The translations under genes were made by a program, and so were the position numbers. Of a stretch of DNA of 56,378 nt, positions 29,849-52,788 are shown piece after piece (the stretch's first letter is position 1; the number at the start of each line of letters is the position of its first letter). The stretch comes from Candidatus Saccharimonadota bacterium. GTDB taxonomy: Bacteria; Patescibacteriota; Saccharimonadia; Saccharimonadales; Saccharimonadaceae. The stretch is taken from NCBI GenBank assembly GCA_017447485.1, contig JAFSNI010000021.1, positions 1 through 56,378 of the forward strand, given 5' to 3'. The notes beneath the pieces were generated by a model, which was not told the DNA's origin, made no database searches, and saw only the letters and a list, made by a program, of their open reading frames with translations.

Positions 29849-30201
29849 CACTTTTTATTATAACACACTTTACTCTCTTCGACCAGCTCCCCCAAGATTT
29901 TTTCTAGCTCCGAATATGGCATCCGCATCACCTCTTTCGTAAAAATCACAAATATATAATCCGTATTCTTTGGCAAATATTCAAAGTTCCGCCGAATCAC
30001 TTCATAAACCCGGCGCCGCATCCGATTCCGTCCCACTGCTGTCTTCTCTACCTTTTTCGACACCACCACCGCCACCCGCGTAAATCCCCGCTCATTCGGC
30101 GCAAAAACCAAAGACGCGACTCTTCCCCTCACCGTCTTTCCATCTCGATAAACATGTTTTACTCCACCCCGCGAATGAAACCGATACTTCTTATTCAACA
30201 T
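29848..30201 (-). CDS. rnpA: Ribonuclease P protein component
   Basis: 117 aa, normal length. The RNR motif region is GRNRMRRRVYEVIR (about 58-71), following VVSKKVEKTAV. It helps RNase P RNA mature tRNA 5' ends. The start ATG 30201 has TATAAT 6 nt upstream (rc of 30208-30213), giving a leaderless transcript separate from rpmH. It overlaps yidC by 1 nt. Confidence 0.93.
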   Translation of the reverse strand: MLNKKYRFHSRGGVKHVYRDGKTVRGRVASLVFAPNERGFTRVAVVVSKKVEKTAVGRNRMRRRVYEVIRRNFEYLPKNTDYIFVIFTKEVMRMPYSELEKILGELVEESKVCYNKK

Positions 30202-30218
30202 ACATATATTATATAATA

Positions 30219-30242
30219 AATAAACCCCTTTCGGGGCTTATT
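30219..30242 (-). terminator. Terminator after rpmH
   Basis: On the minus strand AATAAGCCCC, GAAA loop, GGGGTTTATT (10 bp with one G-T pair) then a T/A-rich tract. The stem includes the first base of the rpmH stop codon. It lies between rpmH and rnpA and would uncouple them. Confidence 0.8.
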
Positions 30243-30379
30243 TATGCCGTCAATCTTGCACGACCTTTCAATCGACGTCGCGCCAAAACCTTGCGACCGT
30301 TAGTGGTTGCATTTCTCTTCATAAAGCCATGCTCAACTTTGCGTTGGCGCTTGTGTGGCTGATAAGTCCTTTTTGGCAT
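30242..30379 (-). CDS. rpmH: Ribosomal protein L34
   Basis: 45 aa, read directly from the minus strand (begins [18 protein letters not shown], ends GRARLTA). It contains the L34 family core [22 protein letters not shown]. Start ATG 30379. The order rpmH-rnpA-yidC-jag next to dnaA is the conserved bacterial origin-region arrangement. Confidence 0.96.
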
Positions 30380-30431
30380 ATTATTCCTTAATCTTTAATT
30401 TATTTCAAATACTTGTTATAGTATAGCGCAT

Positions 30432-30560
30432 TTTTCCACATTTTTCAAGATGTTTTCCACAGCTTTCTATCAAGAACTCACTTTTTGTGGAAATTTTCAC
30501 CCCTGTTTCCAAAATCACATATTACAAAACATTATTTTCTACCCAAAAACCTGTGGAAAA
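30432..30560. promoter_or_regulatory. Four DnaA-box-like sites upstream of dnaA
   Basis: TTTTCCACA at 30432-30440 and 30453-30461, and inverted copies TGTGGAAAT at 30486-30494 and TGTGGAAAA at 30552-30560. They differ from the TTATCCACA consensus at one or two positions. They lie between rpmH and dnaA and may serve origin function and autoregulation. The dnaA extended -10 (TGC-TATACT, 30577-30582) follows. Confidence 0.7.
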
Positions 30561-30604
30561 CTCCCCCGTTTCGTGCTATACTATACATTAATAAGGAGGT
30601 CACA

Positions 30605-31963
30605 GTGTATAACGTCTGGAAAAATGTTTTGGCCGAGATCGAACAAAAAATCTCCGCAGCAAATTTTTCTACTTGGTTTCAAGATACTTCGCTTGTCTCC
30701 GCCGAAGACGGCATCGTCATTATTGGCGTTAAAAACTCCTTTTATGTTAAACAACTCCGCTCCAAATTTCTAAACCTTATCACCGACTCTCTCACTAAAA
30801 ACGGTGTCGAAGTCAAAACTATTGATTTTGAAGTCCAAGCCACCACTAAACCTAAAGTTCGCCCCCGCGAAGTCACCTCCTCCGACTCGCTCAAATCCCG
30901 TACCAAAACCATTAAAAAAACCATCGAGAATAACAAAAGCCCCAACAATGGTCTTAATTCTAAATACACTCTAGATAGCTTCGTTATCGGTAGTAATAAC
31001 GACGTCGCCGTTGCTGCCGCTAAGAGCATTATTAACTCCCCTGGCACCCGCTGCAATCCTTTCTTCCTCTACGGTGGACCAGGCCTCGGCAAAACCCACC
31101 TCGTCCAAGCCATCGGCAACGAACTTCTTAAAAACAACCCAGATTATAAAATCCTCTACACTCCAGTTTCCCAATTCTATTCCGACTTTATCGACGCCAT
31201 CCAAAACGGCAAAGGCAAAGACTTCAATCGCCGCTTTGAGAAACTCGACTGTCTCATCATTGACGATTTTCAATTCATCGTCGGTAAAGAAAAGTCACAG
31301 GAAGAGTTTTTTAATATCTTCAATAACCTCTACCAGCTCAACAAACAAATCATCGTCACCAGTGACCGTCTCCCAAGCCAAATCAAAACCGTCGATGAAC
31401 GCCTCGCTTCTCGTCTCACTATGGGCGGCGCTTTCGACCTCCAGCTCCCAAAGTTTGAAGATAAATGCGCCATTCTCCGCGCTAAAGCCGAGCTTATCGG
31501 TGCCGAAATCGAGCCCGAAGCCATCGAATATATCGCCGAAAACGTCAATACTAACATTCGCGACCTCGAAGGCGAATTCTCTACCATTCTTTTAATGTCC
31601 GAAGTCCGCGGTCTCACTCCGCTCGAACTCATCCAAAACGGCTCTGCCAATATTAACCGCGCCGGCAAGCCTCGTTCGGTCTCCAGTAAACAAGTTATCG
31701 AAAAAGTCGCCAAATATTACGACCTCCCCGTCAAAGAAATGTGCGGCAAATCCCGCGTCGCTCATATTAAGACCGCTCGCCAAGTTGCTATGTTCATCTT
31801 AAAAAACGAACTTTCTTTAAGTACTACTAAAATCGCGAGTGAAGTTGGCGTCAAAGATCACACCACCGTTATGCACGGCATTAAAAAAATCGAATCCGAC
31901 CTTAAACTCAATTTCACCCTTCGCGACCAAATCGCAGAAATTAAGGAGCGCATTTATGGCTAA
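30605..31963 (+). CDS. dnaA: Chromosomal replication initiator DnaA
   Basis: 452 aa from GTG 30605, chosen because AAGGAGGT (30593-30600) is 5 nt upstream; the longer frame would include the promoter. Domain I (VWKNVLAEIEQKISAANFSTWF), an AAA+ domain with Walker A GGPGLGKTHLVQAIG and Walker B CLIIDDFQFI, and the C-terminal DNA-binding helix-turn-helix (VGVKDHTTVMHGIKKI). It opens the origin and is probably autoregulated by the upstream boxes. dnaN and recF follow. Confidence 0.97.
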   Translation: MYNVWKNVLAEIEQKISAANFSTWFQDTSLVSAEDGIVIIGVKNSFYVKQLRSKFLNLITDSLTKNGVEVKTIDFEVQATTKPKVRPREVTSSDSLKSRTKTIKKTIENNKSPNNGLNSKYTLDSFVIGSNNDVAVAAAKSIINSPGTRCNPFFLYGGPGLGKTHLVQAIGNELLKNNPDYKILYTPVSQFYSDFIDAIQNGKGKDFNRRFEKLDCLIIDDFQFIVGKEKSQEEFFNIFNNLYQLNKQIIVTSDRLPSQIKTVDERLASRLTMGGAFDLQLPKFEDKCAILRAKAELIGAEIEPEAIEYIAENVNTNIRDLEGEFSTILLMSEVRGLTPLELIQNGSANINRAGKPRSVSSKQVIEKVAKYYDLPVKEMCGKSRVAHIKTARQVAMFILKNELSLSTTKIASEVGVKDHTTVMHGIKKIESDLKLNFTLRDQIAEIKERIYG

Positions 31964-32208
31964 TTTATTTAAAAATGTGGAAATCACGTGTAAATCTACG
32001 TTGAAATCCATGCGTAAATCCGTGGCAAATCTTTGTGCAAATCATAAAAAAATTGTTCATTTCTCCGAATTCCCCACTTTCTCGCCAACTTTTCCCAACT
32101 TCTCCACCGCGTTATTAACAACCACACTACCCCTTAAAATTAACCGACTTTTCCACTTTTTCACAAACCCTACTATTACTACAAATAATATAAAAGAAAG
32201 GATTTAAA
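31964..32208. other. Probable replication origin with iteron-like array (dnaA-dnaN gap)
   Basis: Six copies of a GTGnAAATC-like 9-mer lie at 31977-32043 with AAATC cores at 31981, 31992, 32004, 32016, 32027 and 32039 (steps 11, 12, 12, 11, 12). Their reverse complement, GATTTnCAC, resembles the DnaA box. A pyrimidine-rich stretch follows (32060-32170), with TTTTCCACT at 32149-32157, then an A/T-rich segment before dnaN that could be the unwinding region. Origin function is inferred from position and repeats. Confidence 0.65.
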
Positions 32209-33309
32209 ATGGAAATAGAAGTTACACAAGACAAATTAAGTAAAGCCCTAAATAATGTCAGTCGCATCGCAGTTGGTAAAGTTACGCTCCCAGTCTTAAA
32301 CAATGTCCTCATTCGGGTTGACCAAAACAAAGTTTCCCTTATTACCACCAATCTAGATATGGCCATTGTGGACTTTTTACCAGTCTCTAACTCTAAAGAT
32401 GGTGTCACTACCGTCCCAGCCAAACTCCTAGCTGAATTTGTCTCTAACCTCCCAAGAGGCGAAAAAATCAAAATTTCCGCCAAAGACACTAAAGTTACCA
32501 TCTCCGCCGGTAGATATACTTCCATTATTAACGGTTCTCCGGCCGACGATTTCCCAGAACTCCCCGAAATTAACGAAGAAAAAGCCGTCATCTTTAAGAT
32601 GGGTATCGATGAGTTTAAAAACGGCATTTCAAGTGTCGCCATCGCGAGTTCCAACGATATGACTCGCCCAGCTCTCACTGGTATCTATTTTAATACTGCC
32701 GATAAGACACTTTGTATTGCCGCTACCGACGGTTATCGTCTTGCCGAGAAAAAACTTATCAAAAACGTCGAAAGTGAAATTAATGTCATCGTTCCTGCTT
32801 CTTCCCTTCAGGAAGTTCTGCGCGCCATCAATGAAGATATGGAAGAAATTGAAATTTCCTTTAATGATGACCTCGTTCGCTTCCGCCTCGGTGAAGTTGA
32901 AATCATCTCAAAGCTCATTGATGCCAGTTTCCCAGATTATCGCCGCCTTATCCCAAAAGATAACGACATCAACCTAGAGCTTAATCGCGAAGAGCTTATT
33001 CGTATTACTAAACTTGCCGCCTTGTTTGCTCGGAGCGTCAACGGCTCAATCACTTGCGAGTCTAAAAAGCCAAACTCCTTTACCGTTAAATCTATCGCGA
33101 ACGAGCTTGGTGAAAATGACTCCAGTATTGAAACCCCAGTTGACATAGAAGGTAAAATCCGCCTCAATTCCCGCTTCCTGATTGACGCTTTAAATGTCCT
33201 AGACGATAAAGAAATTACCTTTAACTTTGCTAGCCGTATCGCCCCGGTCATTTTGCGCAACAAGAAAAACCAAGATTACACTCATATTGTAATGCCACTC
33301 AATTCATAA
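32209..33309 (+). CDS. dnaN: DNA polymerase III beta sliding clamp
   Basis: 366 aa, normal length. Three clamp domains; family sequences include LPVLNNVLIRVDQNKVSLITTNLDMAI, the domain-2 GTIYFN-like ALTGIYFNTADKTLCIAATDGYRLAEKK, and the C-terminal PVILRNKKN...IVMPL. AAAGGA precedes the ATG. It confers processivity on the replicative polymerase. Its stop overlaps the recF start (TAATG). Confidence 0.97.
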   Translation: MEIEVTQDKLSKALNNVSRIAVGKVTLPVLNNVLIRVDQNKVSLITTNLDMAIVDFLPVSNSKDGVTTVPAKLLAEFVSNLPRGEKIKISAKDTKVTISAGRYTSIINGSPADDFPELPEINEEKAVIFKMGIDEFKNGISSVAIASSNDMTRPALTGIYFNTADKTLCIAATDGYRLAEKKLIKNVESEINVIVPASSLQEVLRAINEDMEEIEISFNDDLVRFRLGEVEIISKLIDASFPDYRRLIPKDNDINLELNREELIRITKLAALFARSVNGSITCESKKPNSFTVKSIANELGENDSSIETPVDIEGKIRLNSRFLIDALNVLDDKEITFNFASRIAPVILRNKKNQDYTHIVMPLNS

Positions 33310-34310
33310 TGTTAATCAAATCCATTTCTCTCACTAATTTTCGCAACCACAATCAGTATTATCTAGAATGTAATCCAGATACCACTTTAATTTTGGGTGA
33401 GAATGGTTGTGGCAAAACTTCTGTGCTCGAGGCAATTTATATTTTGACCCGCGGCAAAAGTTTTCGCGCCACCGACCCAGATATCATTAAACGTGAAGCC
33501 CCTTTCTATCGTATCGAATTAACATATGATAACGGCGAAACCAGAGTCGCGACTTATAATCACCAAGTTAAAACTTTTATCTGCTTTGATAAAAAATCTC
33601 GCCGTTTGCCCAAAAAGGCTAAACATCCAGTTGTTCTCTTTCAGCCATCCGATTTAAATCTTGTCAGCGGCTCGCCTTCGCGCCACCGTGAATATTTTGA
33701 TCACATTTTCTCGGAACTTAGCGAGGAATACAGCACCAACCTCTCAAAATATGAAAAAGCCCTCCACCAGCGCAACGAACTCTTAAAATCAGACAACCTT
33801 TCAAGGGATGCACTTTTTTCCTGGAATCTGCTACTCGCTCGTTATGGTTCAAATCTACATAAGATGCGACAAGAATTTATAATCTTCATCAACGAAAACT
33901 TAAACCCCTTCTACACCTCTATTGCAGAAAATCATGACCTTGTGTTTTTAAAACATAAAACTGAATTAAAAAACATAACCGAGTCAGCTTACTTAAAATT
34001 TCTTGAACAAAATTTTGAAAAAGACCATTATCTTGGCCACACTTCTTTTGGTATTCATCGTGATGATTTTGAATTTTTCTTTAACGCTAACCCTGCTAGC
34101 GGTTCAGCTTCCCGTGGCGAAACTCGTTCGCTCATTCTAGCTCTCAAATTTGTCGAAGCCAAGATTCTTGAAGAAAAACTTGGTGAAAAGCCTATTATTC
34201 TTCTCGATGATGTCTTCTCCGAGCTAGATAATCTCCGTCGCAAATGCTTGATTAATAATTTTAAAGACCACCAGGTTATTCTCACAAGTGTCGAGGCGGT
34301 TACTTACTAG
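33309..34310 (+). CDS. recF: DNA repair and replication protein RecF
   Basis: 333 aa, slightly shorter than the common 350-370. Walker A GENGCGKTSVLEAIYIL (about 30-46), ABC-type signature SASRGETRSLILALKF, and Walker B PIILLDDVFSELD. It loads RecA on gaps with RecO/RecR. Operon with dnaN. Its 3' end overlaps the convergent membrane protein gene by 11 nt. Confidence 0.93.
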   Translation: MLIKSISLTNFRNHNQYYLECNPDTTLILGENGCGKTSVLEAIYILTRGKSFRATDPDIIKREAPFYRIELTYDNGETRVATYNHQVKTFICFDKKSRRLPKKAKHPVVLFQPSDLNLVSGSPSRHREYFDHIFSELSEEYSTNLSKYEKALHQRNELLKSDNLSRDALFSWNLLLARYGSNLHKMRQEFIIFINENLNPFYTSIAENHDLVFLKHKTELKNITESAYLKFLEQNFEKDHYLGHTSFGIHRDDFEFFFNANPASGSASRGETRSLILALKFVEAKILEEKLGEKPIILLDDVFSELDNLRRKCLINNFKDHQVILTSVEAVTY

Positions 34311-52545: not shown

Positions 52546-52788
52546 GCCTTAATTGTATCACAAGTTTTACACACGAAATCGCAAAACTTATCCACAAAAA
52601 CCATAACCGAAATCGCCGCCTATCATCGCTGTGCTAGCAACCGCGCGCCTTGGCAACCGCACTTGACAACCAAACCCGCTTGCGCTAAAATCAAAGTAAC
52701 CCTTGGCAACCGCCATTGGGAGAGAATAAAAGTGTTAATGTTTATGTCATAGGAAAGCATAAGCAGTCAAATTTTTGCACGTGTTGAA
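52546..52788 (+). promoter_or_regulatory. FemAB promoter region with GCAACCGC repeats
   Basis: TTGACA at 52663-52668, 17-nt spacer, TAAAAT at 52686-52691. GCAACCGC occurs at 52637, 52653 and 52706, with a 13-bp repeat CCTTGGCAACCGC at 52648 and 52701; two copies lie before and one after the promoter. A roughly 90-nt leader follows, with a possible short frame (GTG at about 52731, VLMFMS) after GGGAG. TTATCCACA at 52589-52597 matches the DnaA box exactly, a single copy. Confidence 0.5.

Follow-up and report, generated by a model that had tools for sequence, protein, structure and literature searches.

The window analysed here is a stretch of 56,378 nt from Candidatus Saccharimonadota bacterium (GCA_017447485.1, contig JAFSNI010000021.1, forward strand), in which dnaA (30602..31963, plus strand, with a likely GTG start at 30602) is followed by dnaN (32209..33309, plus strand). 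Both genes were identified by Pfam, the first through Bac_DnaA (8.9e-58), Bac_DnaA_C and DnaA_N and the second through DNA_pol3_beta domains. The gap between them, 245 bp from the end of dnaA at 31963 to the start of dnaN at 32209, carries a row of six 9-mers that face leftward (31976..32042, minus strand). This leftward array is most probably the distal DnaA-binding module of a chromosomal origin of replication (oriC) situated between dnaA and dnaN, a reading to which we assign a probability of about 0.88.

The leftward array and its conservation

Six AAATC cores, at 31981, 31992, 32004, 32016, 32027 and 32039, had been reported in an earlier note on this DNA, and both their positions and their steps of 11, 12, 12, 11 and 12 bp were confirmed. 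Every AAATC of the gap falls within this single chain of 11-12 bp steps. When the gap was shuffled 20,000 times with its dinucleotides preserved, the longest AAATC chain had two members, against the six observed, and the whole 56-kb window contains no second AAATC chain of equal length. The longer unit GTGnAAATC, proposed in the same note, is exact in copies 1, 2 and 6 only; copies 3 and 4 depart from it by one mismatch and copy 5 by two.

The DnaA-box consensus is TTWTNCACA, with eight informative positions. The 9-mers in register occupy 31976-31984, 31987-31995, 31999-32007, 32011-32019, 32022-32030 and 32034-32042, and when read on the minus strand they show 1, 2, 3, 2, 4 and 1 mismatches to this consensus, in that order. 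Copies 1 and 6 are thus nearest to a DnaA box, and copy 5 is degenerate; because of its four mismatches it counts as a box solely through its register. Judged from the sequence, the array is composed of the cores of leftward-facing, mostly weak DnaA-box-like sequences, which supports, at the level of predicted boxes, the suggestion that degenerate inverse DnaA boxes lie at an origin here.

The regular step had been taken to place all boxes on the same side of the DNA. For B-DNA with 10.5 bp per turn, the copies stand at 0, 17, 69, 120, 137 and 189 degrees, and since the sixth box lies 189 degrees, or about half a turn, round from the first, there is no common helix face and this reading was rejected. 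Escherichia coli DnaA is described as preferring paired boxes 2-3 bp apart (PMC11317965), that is 11-12 bp from start to start, and all five steps in the window follow this rule. The step is best read as a DnaA-DnaA contact distance, made up of a 9-mer plus 2-3 bp.

For comparison, 110 loci were fetched with the window DnaA, 30 of them through a genus search (53 of 60 genomes matched) and the other 80 as the best 80 of 174. The dnaA-dnaN gap was recovered at all 110, and 83 distinct gaps were retained, the window among them. Chains were defined by the pattern TGTGNAAA, with at least five of seven letters matching and steps of 10-13. Leftward chains of at least four copies occurred in 56 of the 83 genus gaps, compared with 3 of 1660 shuffles, and the array therefore withstood a comparison with near relatives, whose lack of it would have spoken against the earlier proposal. 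Rightward chains of the same minimum length were present in 60 of the 83 gaps (25 of 1660 shuffles). Distances between leftward boxes in these gaps peak at 11-12, 23-24, 35, 47 and 58 bp, and the mean step is 11.53 bp in the 54 of 82 gaps that hold a chain of at least four copies within the first 120 nt. Steps of 10, 11, 12 and 13 bp were counted 24, 78, 139 and 9 times in the genus. The core conserved across the genus is GTGnAAA, of which AAATC is a local variant. The alignment of 82 gaps made with MAFFT excludes locus L022, whose gap is cut and whose dnaN match begins at residue 108.

A sample from the class comprised 27 loci, 25 of which yielded a gap. Leftward chains of at least three copies were found in 13 of these (3 of 500 shuffles) and rightward chains of at least three in 12 (14 of 500 shuffles). 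Two contigs titled Methanobrevibacter and Erysipelotrichaceae (L050 and L096) also carried a Saccharibacteria-like dnaA-dnaN; they are probably mis-binned contigs of metagenome-assembled genomes.

Other probable origin elements and the initiator protein

Three elements beyond those of the earlier note were recognized: a rightward array, tandem boxes with DnaA-trios (32149-32187) and a cluster of strong boxes 5' of dnaA. The rightward weak DnaA boxes occupy 32090..32120 on the plus strand (32090-32098, 32100-32108 and 32112-32120), with steps of 10 and 12. Downstream of them stand the tandem DnaA boxes of a putative basal unwinding system (BUS), TTTTCCACT at 32149-32157 and TTTTTCACA at 32157-32165, both on the plus strand (32149..32165). 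A 4-bp spacer (32166..32169) separates these from a putative DnaA-trio element (32170..32187), whose trios lie on the minus strand and whose plus strand reads CTA CTA TTA CTA CAA ATA. The two window boxes are 8 bp apart and share one base. This distance was counted for 63 rightward box pairs over the 83 genus gaps, and in the class the commonest such distance is 9 bp, with 28 pairs over 25 gaps.

A published BUS search rule requires the first trio to have one DnaA box or more no farther than 16 bp away (PMC8287927), and in the window TTTTTCACA lies 4 bp ahead of this trio. Four trios with a central T (CTA CTA TTA CTA) follow one another, where at least three consecutive trios of the form 3'-NAN-5' are expected, and two co-oriented boxes, at 32149 and 32157, adjoin them. 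The leftward array supplies the distal upstream DnaA-box group of a Bacillus subtilis-type oriC.

A regular expression for box plus trios matched 78 of 82 genus gaps and 22 of 1640 mononucleotide shuffles; a looser one matched 20 of 25 class gaps and 16 of 500 shuffles. When up to two mismatches are allowed, the BUS pattern has a single occurrence in its own genome, and of six relatives, four have it once, one has it twice and one lacks it; with up to one mismatch it matches 41 of 72 genus genomes. Genome G092 holds two BUS matches, on contigs C14 and C26, perhaps because its bin combines two strains. Across the 82 aligned gaps, no columns of the trio region are more constant than the A at each third position, from 32172 to 32187 (0.96-1.00). 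The middle base of the trios varies more than the third and is loose in the class as well; the anchored position frequencies are biased here, as the anchor favours A at the third position, and the anchor-free MAFFT columns follow the same trend.

Stronger DnaA boxes are found 5' of dnaA (30432..30560), with TTTTCCACA at 30432 (plus), 30453 (plus) and 30552 (minus), together with a one-mismatch copy at 30486 (minus). At least two exact boxes within 250 bp 5' of dnaA were present in all 79 relatives examined, L022 being excluded. Elsewhere in the window, TTTTACACA and TTATCCACA (52565-52596) stand 23 bp apart in an apparently intergenic position, possibly as a separate DnaA-regulated site. An RNA element in the gap was considered and rejected, no Rfam family having reached its gathering score within 30200-32400. 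Three promoter-like matches, compared with 1.0 expected, were not taken as evidence.

The best solved relative of the window DnaA is PDB 8btg (E 2.5e-87), taken here as the BUS complex of B. subtilis. The stretch DHTTVMH, presumably the one that reads the DnaA box, is kept in the window protein and aligns to DHTTVIH of that structure. In B. subtilis DnaA, Asn187 is described as contacting a trio adenine (PMC10721633). The equivalent position, placed through the aligned motif NEFINSI / SDFIDAI, is residue 194 of the window dnaA product. Of the 82 genus proteins, 69 carry Ser and 13 carry Ala at this site; Asn occupies it in 14 of 27 class proteins. As the trio-contacting residues are reported not to be universally conserved (PMC10721633), Asn187 does not define the BUS family.

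Proposed role, rival explanations and GC skew

Several observations point to a replication start at or near this locus. The dnaA strand holds a higher share of coding base pairs beyond the BUS than before it, going from 0.28 to 0.69 in the window, 0.36 to 0.74 in G004, 0.22 to 0.82 in G060, 0.19 to 0.69 in G061 and 0.42 to 0.76 in G062. A step in GC skew near the BUS was seen in all seven contigs tested; in the window the best change point lies at +4.3 kb from the BUS, with support from -5.9 to +6.4 kb. For the closed genome of the saccharibacterium T. rhizospherense, the origin was likewise predicted between dnaN and dnaA (PMC6031116). The gap and its flanks look like an ordinary chromosomal oriC of the B. 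subtilis kind.

In such an origin, ATP-DnaA would bind the stronger boxes first and would then fill the weak leftward array head to tail, since gaps of 2-3 bp are the distance for cooperative binding of neighbouring DnaA. The filled array would raise the local amount of DnaA and might feed the tandem boxes (32149-32165) by looping, as proposed for the distal incC boxes of B. subtilis. From the tandem boxes, DnaA would extend onto the trio strand (32170-32187), open the duplex and permit helicase loading. An array that nucleates a DnaA filament had been envisaged in the earlier note, and as a platform for a DnaA oligomer this is plausible on sequence grounds.

A number of observations weigh against assigning the array to a functional origin. 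Copies 3 and 5 are poor DnaA boxes, the pattern TGTGNAAA was picked after inspection of the gap sequences, and 27 of the 83 gaps lack a chain of four or more under the chain rule used. Under a stricter trio rule, the BUS is recovered in 50 of 83 gaps from the genus and in 4 of 25 from the class; this expression is too strict for the more degenerate relatives, and looser ones were used in its place. The least stable 40-mers of 30001-34000 lie at 30184 and 30379, outside the trio region. In G027 and G034 the coding strand shifts gradually over the BUS, the best skew change points of six other contigs fall anywhere from -6 to +26 kb relative to it and depend on the span, and GC skew does not change sign at the dnaA-dnaN locus.

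The alternative that survives best, though we think it unlikely, is that the leftward array serves chiefly in DnaA autoregulation or titration, as a sink or in dnaN/dnaA control, and is dispensable for origin opening. Such a role would suit the presence of further box clusters 5' of dnaA, the distance of at least 100 bp between array and trios, and the weakness of most boxes. Against it, the array keeps its place, direction and step alongside the BUS all through the genus and to some extent in the class, and B. subtilis incC is described as requiring both distal and trio-proximal box groups, the distal ones being thought to loop (PMC6669920).

It is very unlikely that replication starts elsewhere and that the gap is a DnaA-binding relic. 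This idea draws on the skew flanking the gap, which is negative on either side in 68 of 79 relatives and positive on either side in 8, so that 76 show one sign; the remaining 3 are mixed. Against it stand shifts, at or close to the BUS, in gene-strand bias as well as in the level of the skew; the BUS itself is conserved and occurs once in its own genome.

Plasmid-type iterons bound by a Rep protein, to which the earlier note had likened the array, are likewise short, directly repeated and evenly spaced. Here DnaA boxes are the repeating unit and their spacing is that of DnaA itself, the neighbourhood is the chromosomal rnpA-dnaA-dnaN-recF one, and no Rep-type initiator gene is among the five neighbouring genes scanned with Pfam (dnaA, dnaN, recF-like, rnpA and yidC-like). 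Since the array is located where B. subtilis carries its distal incC boxes, it is not iteron-like, and this explanation, being extremely improbable, was rejected. Equally negligible is a short coding sequence, for although a 122-aa open reading frame (31839-32207) stays open through the gap, it has no Pfam match, overlaps dnaA in another frame and spans a gap whose length varies freely in relatives (216-337 nt, with 123 nt in a single gap that is cut).

GC skew on the dnaA-sense strand keeps a single sign across the origin in the window and in G034, G060, G061 and G062, as it does in most of the 79 relatives. In the window, plus-strand skew at third positions amounts to -0.68 in plus genes and -0.70 in minus genes left of 32000, and to -0.47 and -0.44, respectively, right of it; the near-equal values in plus and minus genes indicate that gene direction is not the cause. 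Right-flank skew exceeds left-flank skew in 76 of 79 relatives, and the both-positive state changes twice on the DnaA tree. The dnaA-sense skew is positive at L023, L028, L078, L088, L104, L108, L109 and L110 and negative in most of the genus. Skew-based origin finders could consequently miss or misplace the origin in this genus.

In G061 the skew is -0.34 left and -0.19 right on contig C5, and -0.22 and -0.32 on contig C6. A terminus at 155-164 kb of C6, suggested by the skew step, was dropped because the genes there are mostly on one strand and have their counterparts mainly in the left arms of G027 and G062, with shared orientation in 56 of 74 cases for G027 and 13 of 14 for G062; matches to the dnaA contig of G034 are mixed, with 18 of 32 in the same orientation. 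G034, sampled in 22 stretches over two contigs (745 of about 773 kb), has a single skew sign per contig in every 20-kb stretch, and the signs of its contigs agree if C2 runs parallel to the dnaA strand, as suggested by the gene-strand pattern, which changes near C2:80 kb. By inferred contig order and orientation, one skew sign would extend over most of the G034 and G061 chromosomes. Judged by gene strand, the left replichore of G034, G061 and G027 seems about twice as long as the right, with roughly 499 versus 245 kb in G034 if the terminus is near C2:80 kb.

Chromosomes with strongly asymmetric skew number about 250 in SkewDB (PMC8941118), and one-way replication was predicted for 77 of 16,103 large replicons (PMC7858055). 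A speculative and unlikely possibility is that a large fraction of the replication rounds in this genus go mainly one way from oriC, in addition to ordinary two-way rounds; they would run leftward in the window's clade and rightward in other members. Mainly one-way rounds would leave the dnaA-sense strand C-rich (or G-rich) on both replichores, with gene bias and skew level still changing at the origin.

Comparison with known origins

No paper on the architecture of Saccharibacteria origins was among the literature matches listed, and the main text of PMC8287927 names neither Saccharibacteria nor Patescibacteria. The conserved features described here give a concrete map of the predicted oriC for tiny, poorly studied host-dependent bacteria. 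The map agrees with an early evolutionary origin of the BUS, as has been proposed, and supplies about 80 naturally occurring versions of an array of spaced DnaA boxes; the origin could also be used to build replicating vectors.

The locus resembles B. subtilis incC in its location between dnaA and dnaN, in its distal boxes and in the two co-oriented boxes that adjoin the trios. B. subtilis also carries a box cluster 5' of dnaA, as the window does. In addition, the plus-strand CTACTATTACT of the window is the complement of the first B. subtilis trios as described in PMC10316083; that origin has been termed bipartite (PMC6669920). The window locus differs from the B. subtilis origin in that its distal boxes, about six of them, are lined up as a regular leftward array with 11-12 bp steps and its tandem boxes stand 8 bp apart. 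In addition, conservation of the trios is lower at the middle base than at the third, and Ser or Ala replaces Asn187 in this genus.

Among Saccharibacteria, T. rhizospherense shares the predicted location between dnaN and dnaA; in the passage of PMC6031116 that gives it, the prediction stands without box architecture. The oriC of Thermotoga maritima is similar in having a directional box cluster that adjoins a TAG-repeat unwinding element; it has five boxes, one of them inverted, where two longer arrays are present here (PMC10316083). A phased array had been thought untypical of bacterial origins, a view at odds with E. coli oriC, which has two oppositely oriented arrays of low-affinity sites (PMC4285127). 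Like the left and right DnaA-oligomerization regions of that origin, the gap holds two opposed arrays of weak boxes with head-to-tail spacing (PMC10316083, PMC4285127), and unlike E. coli oriC, which does not adjoin dnaA (PMC6669920), it places them directly beside the initiator gene.
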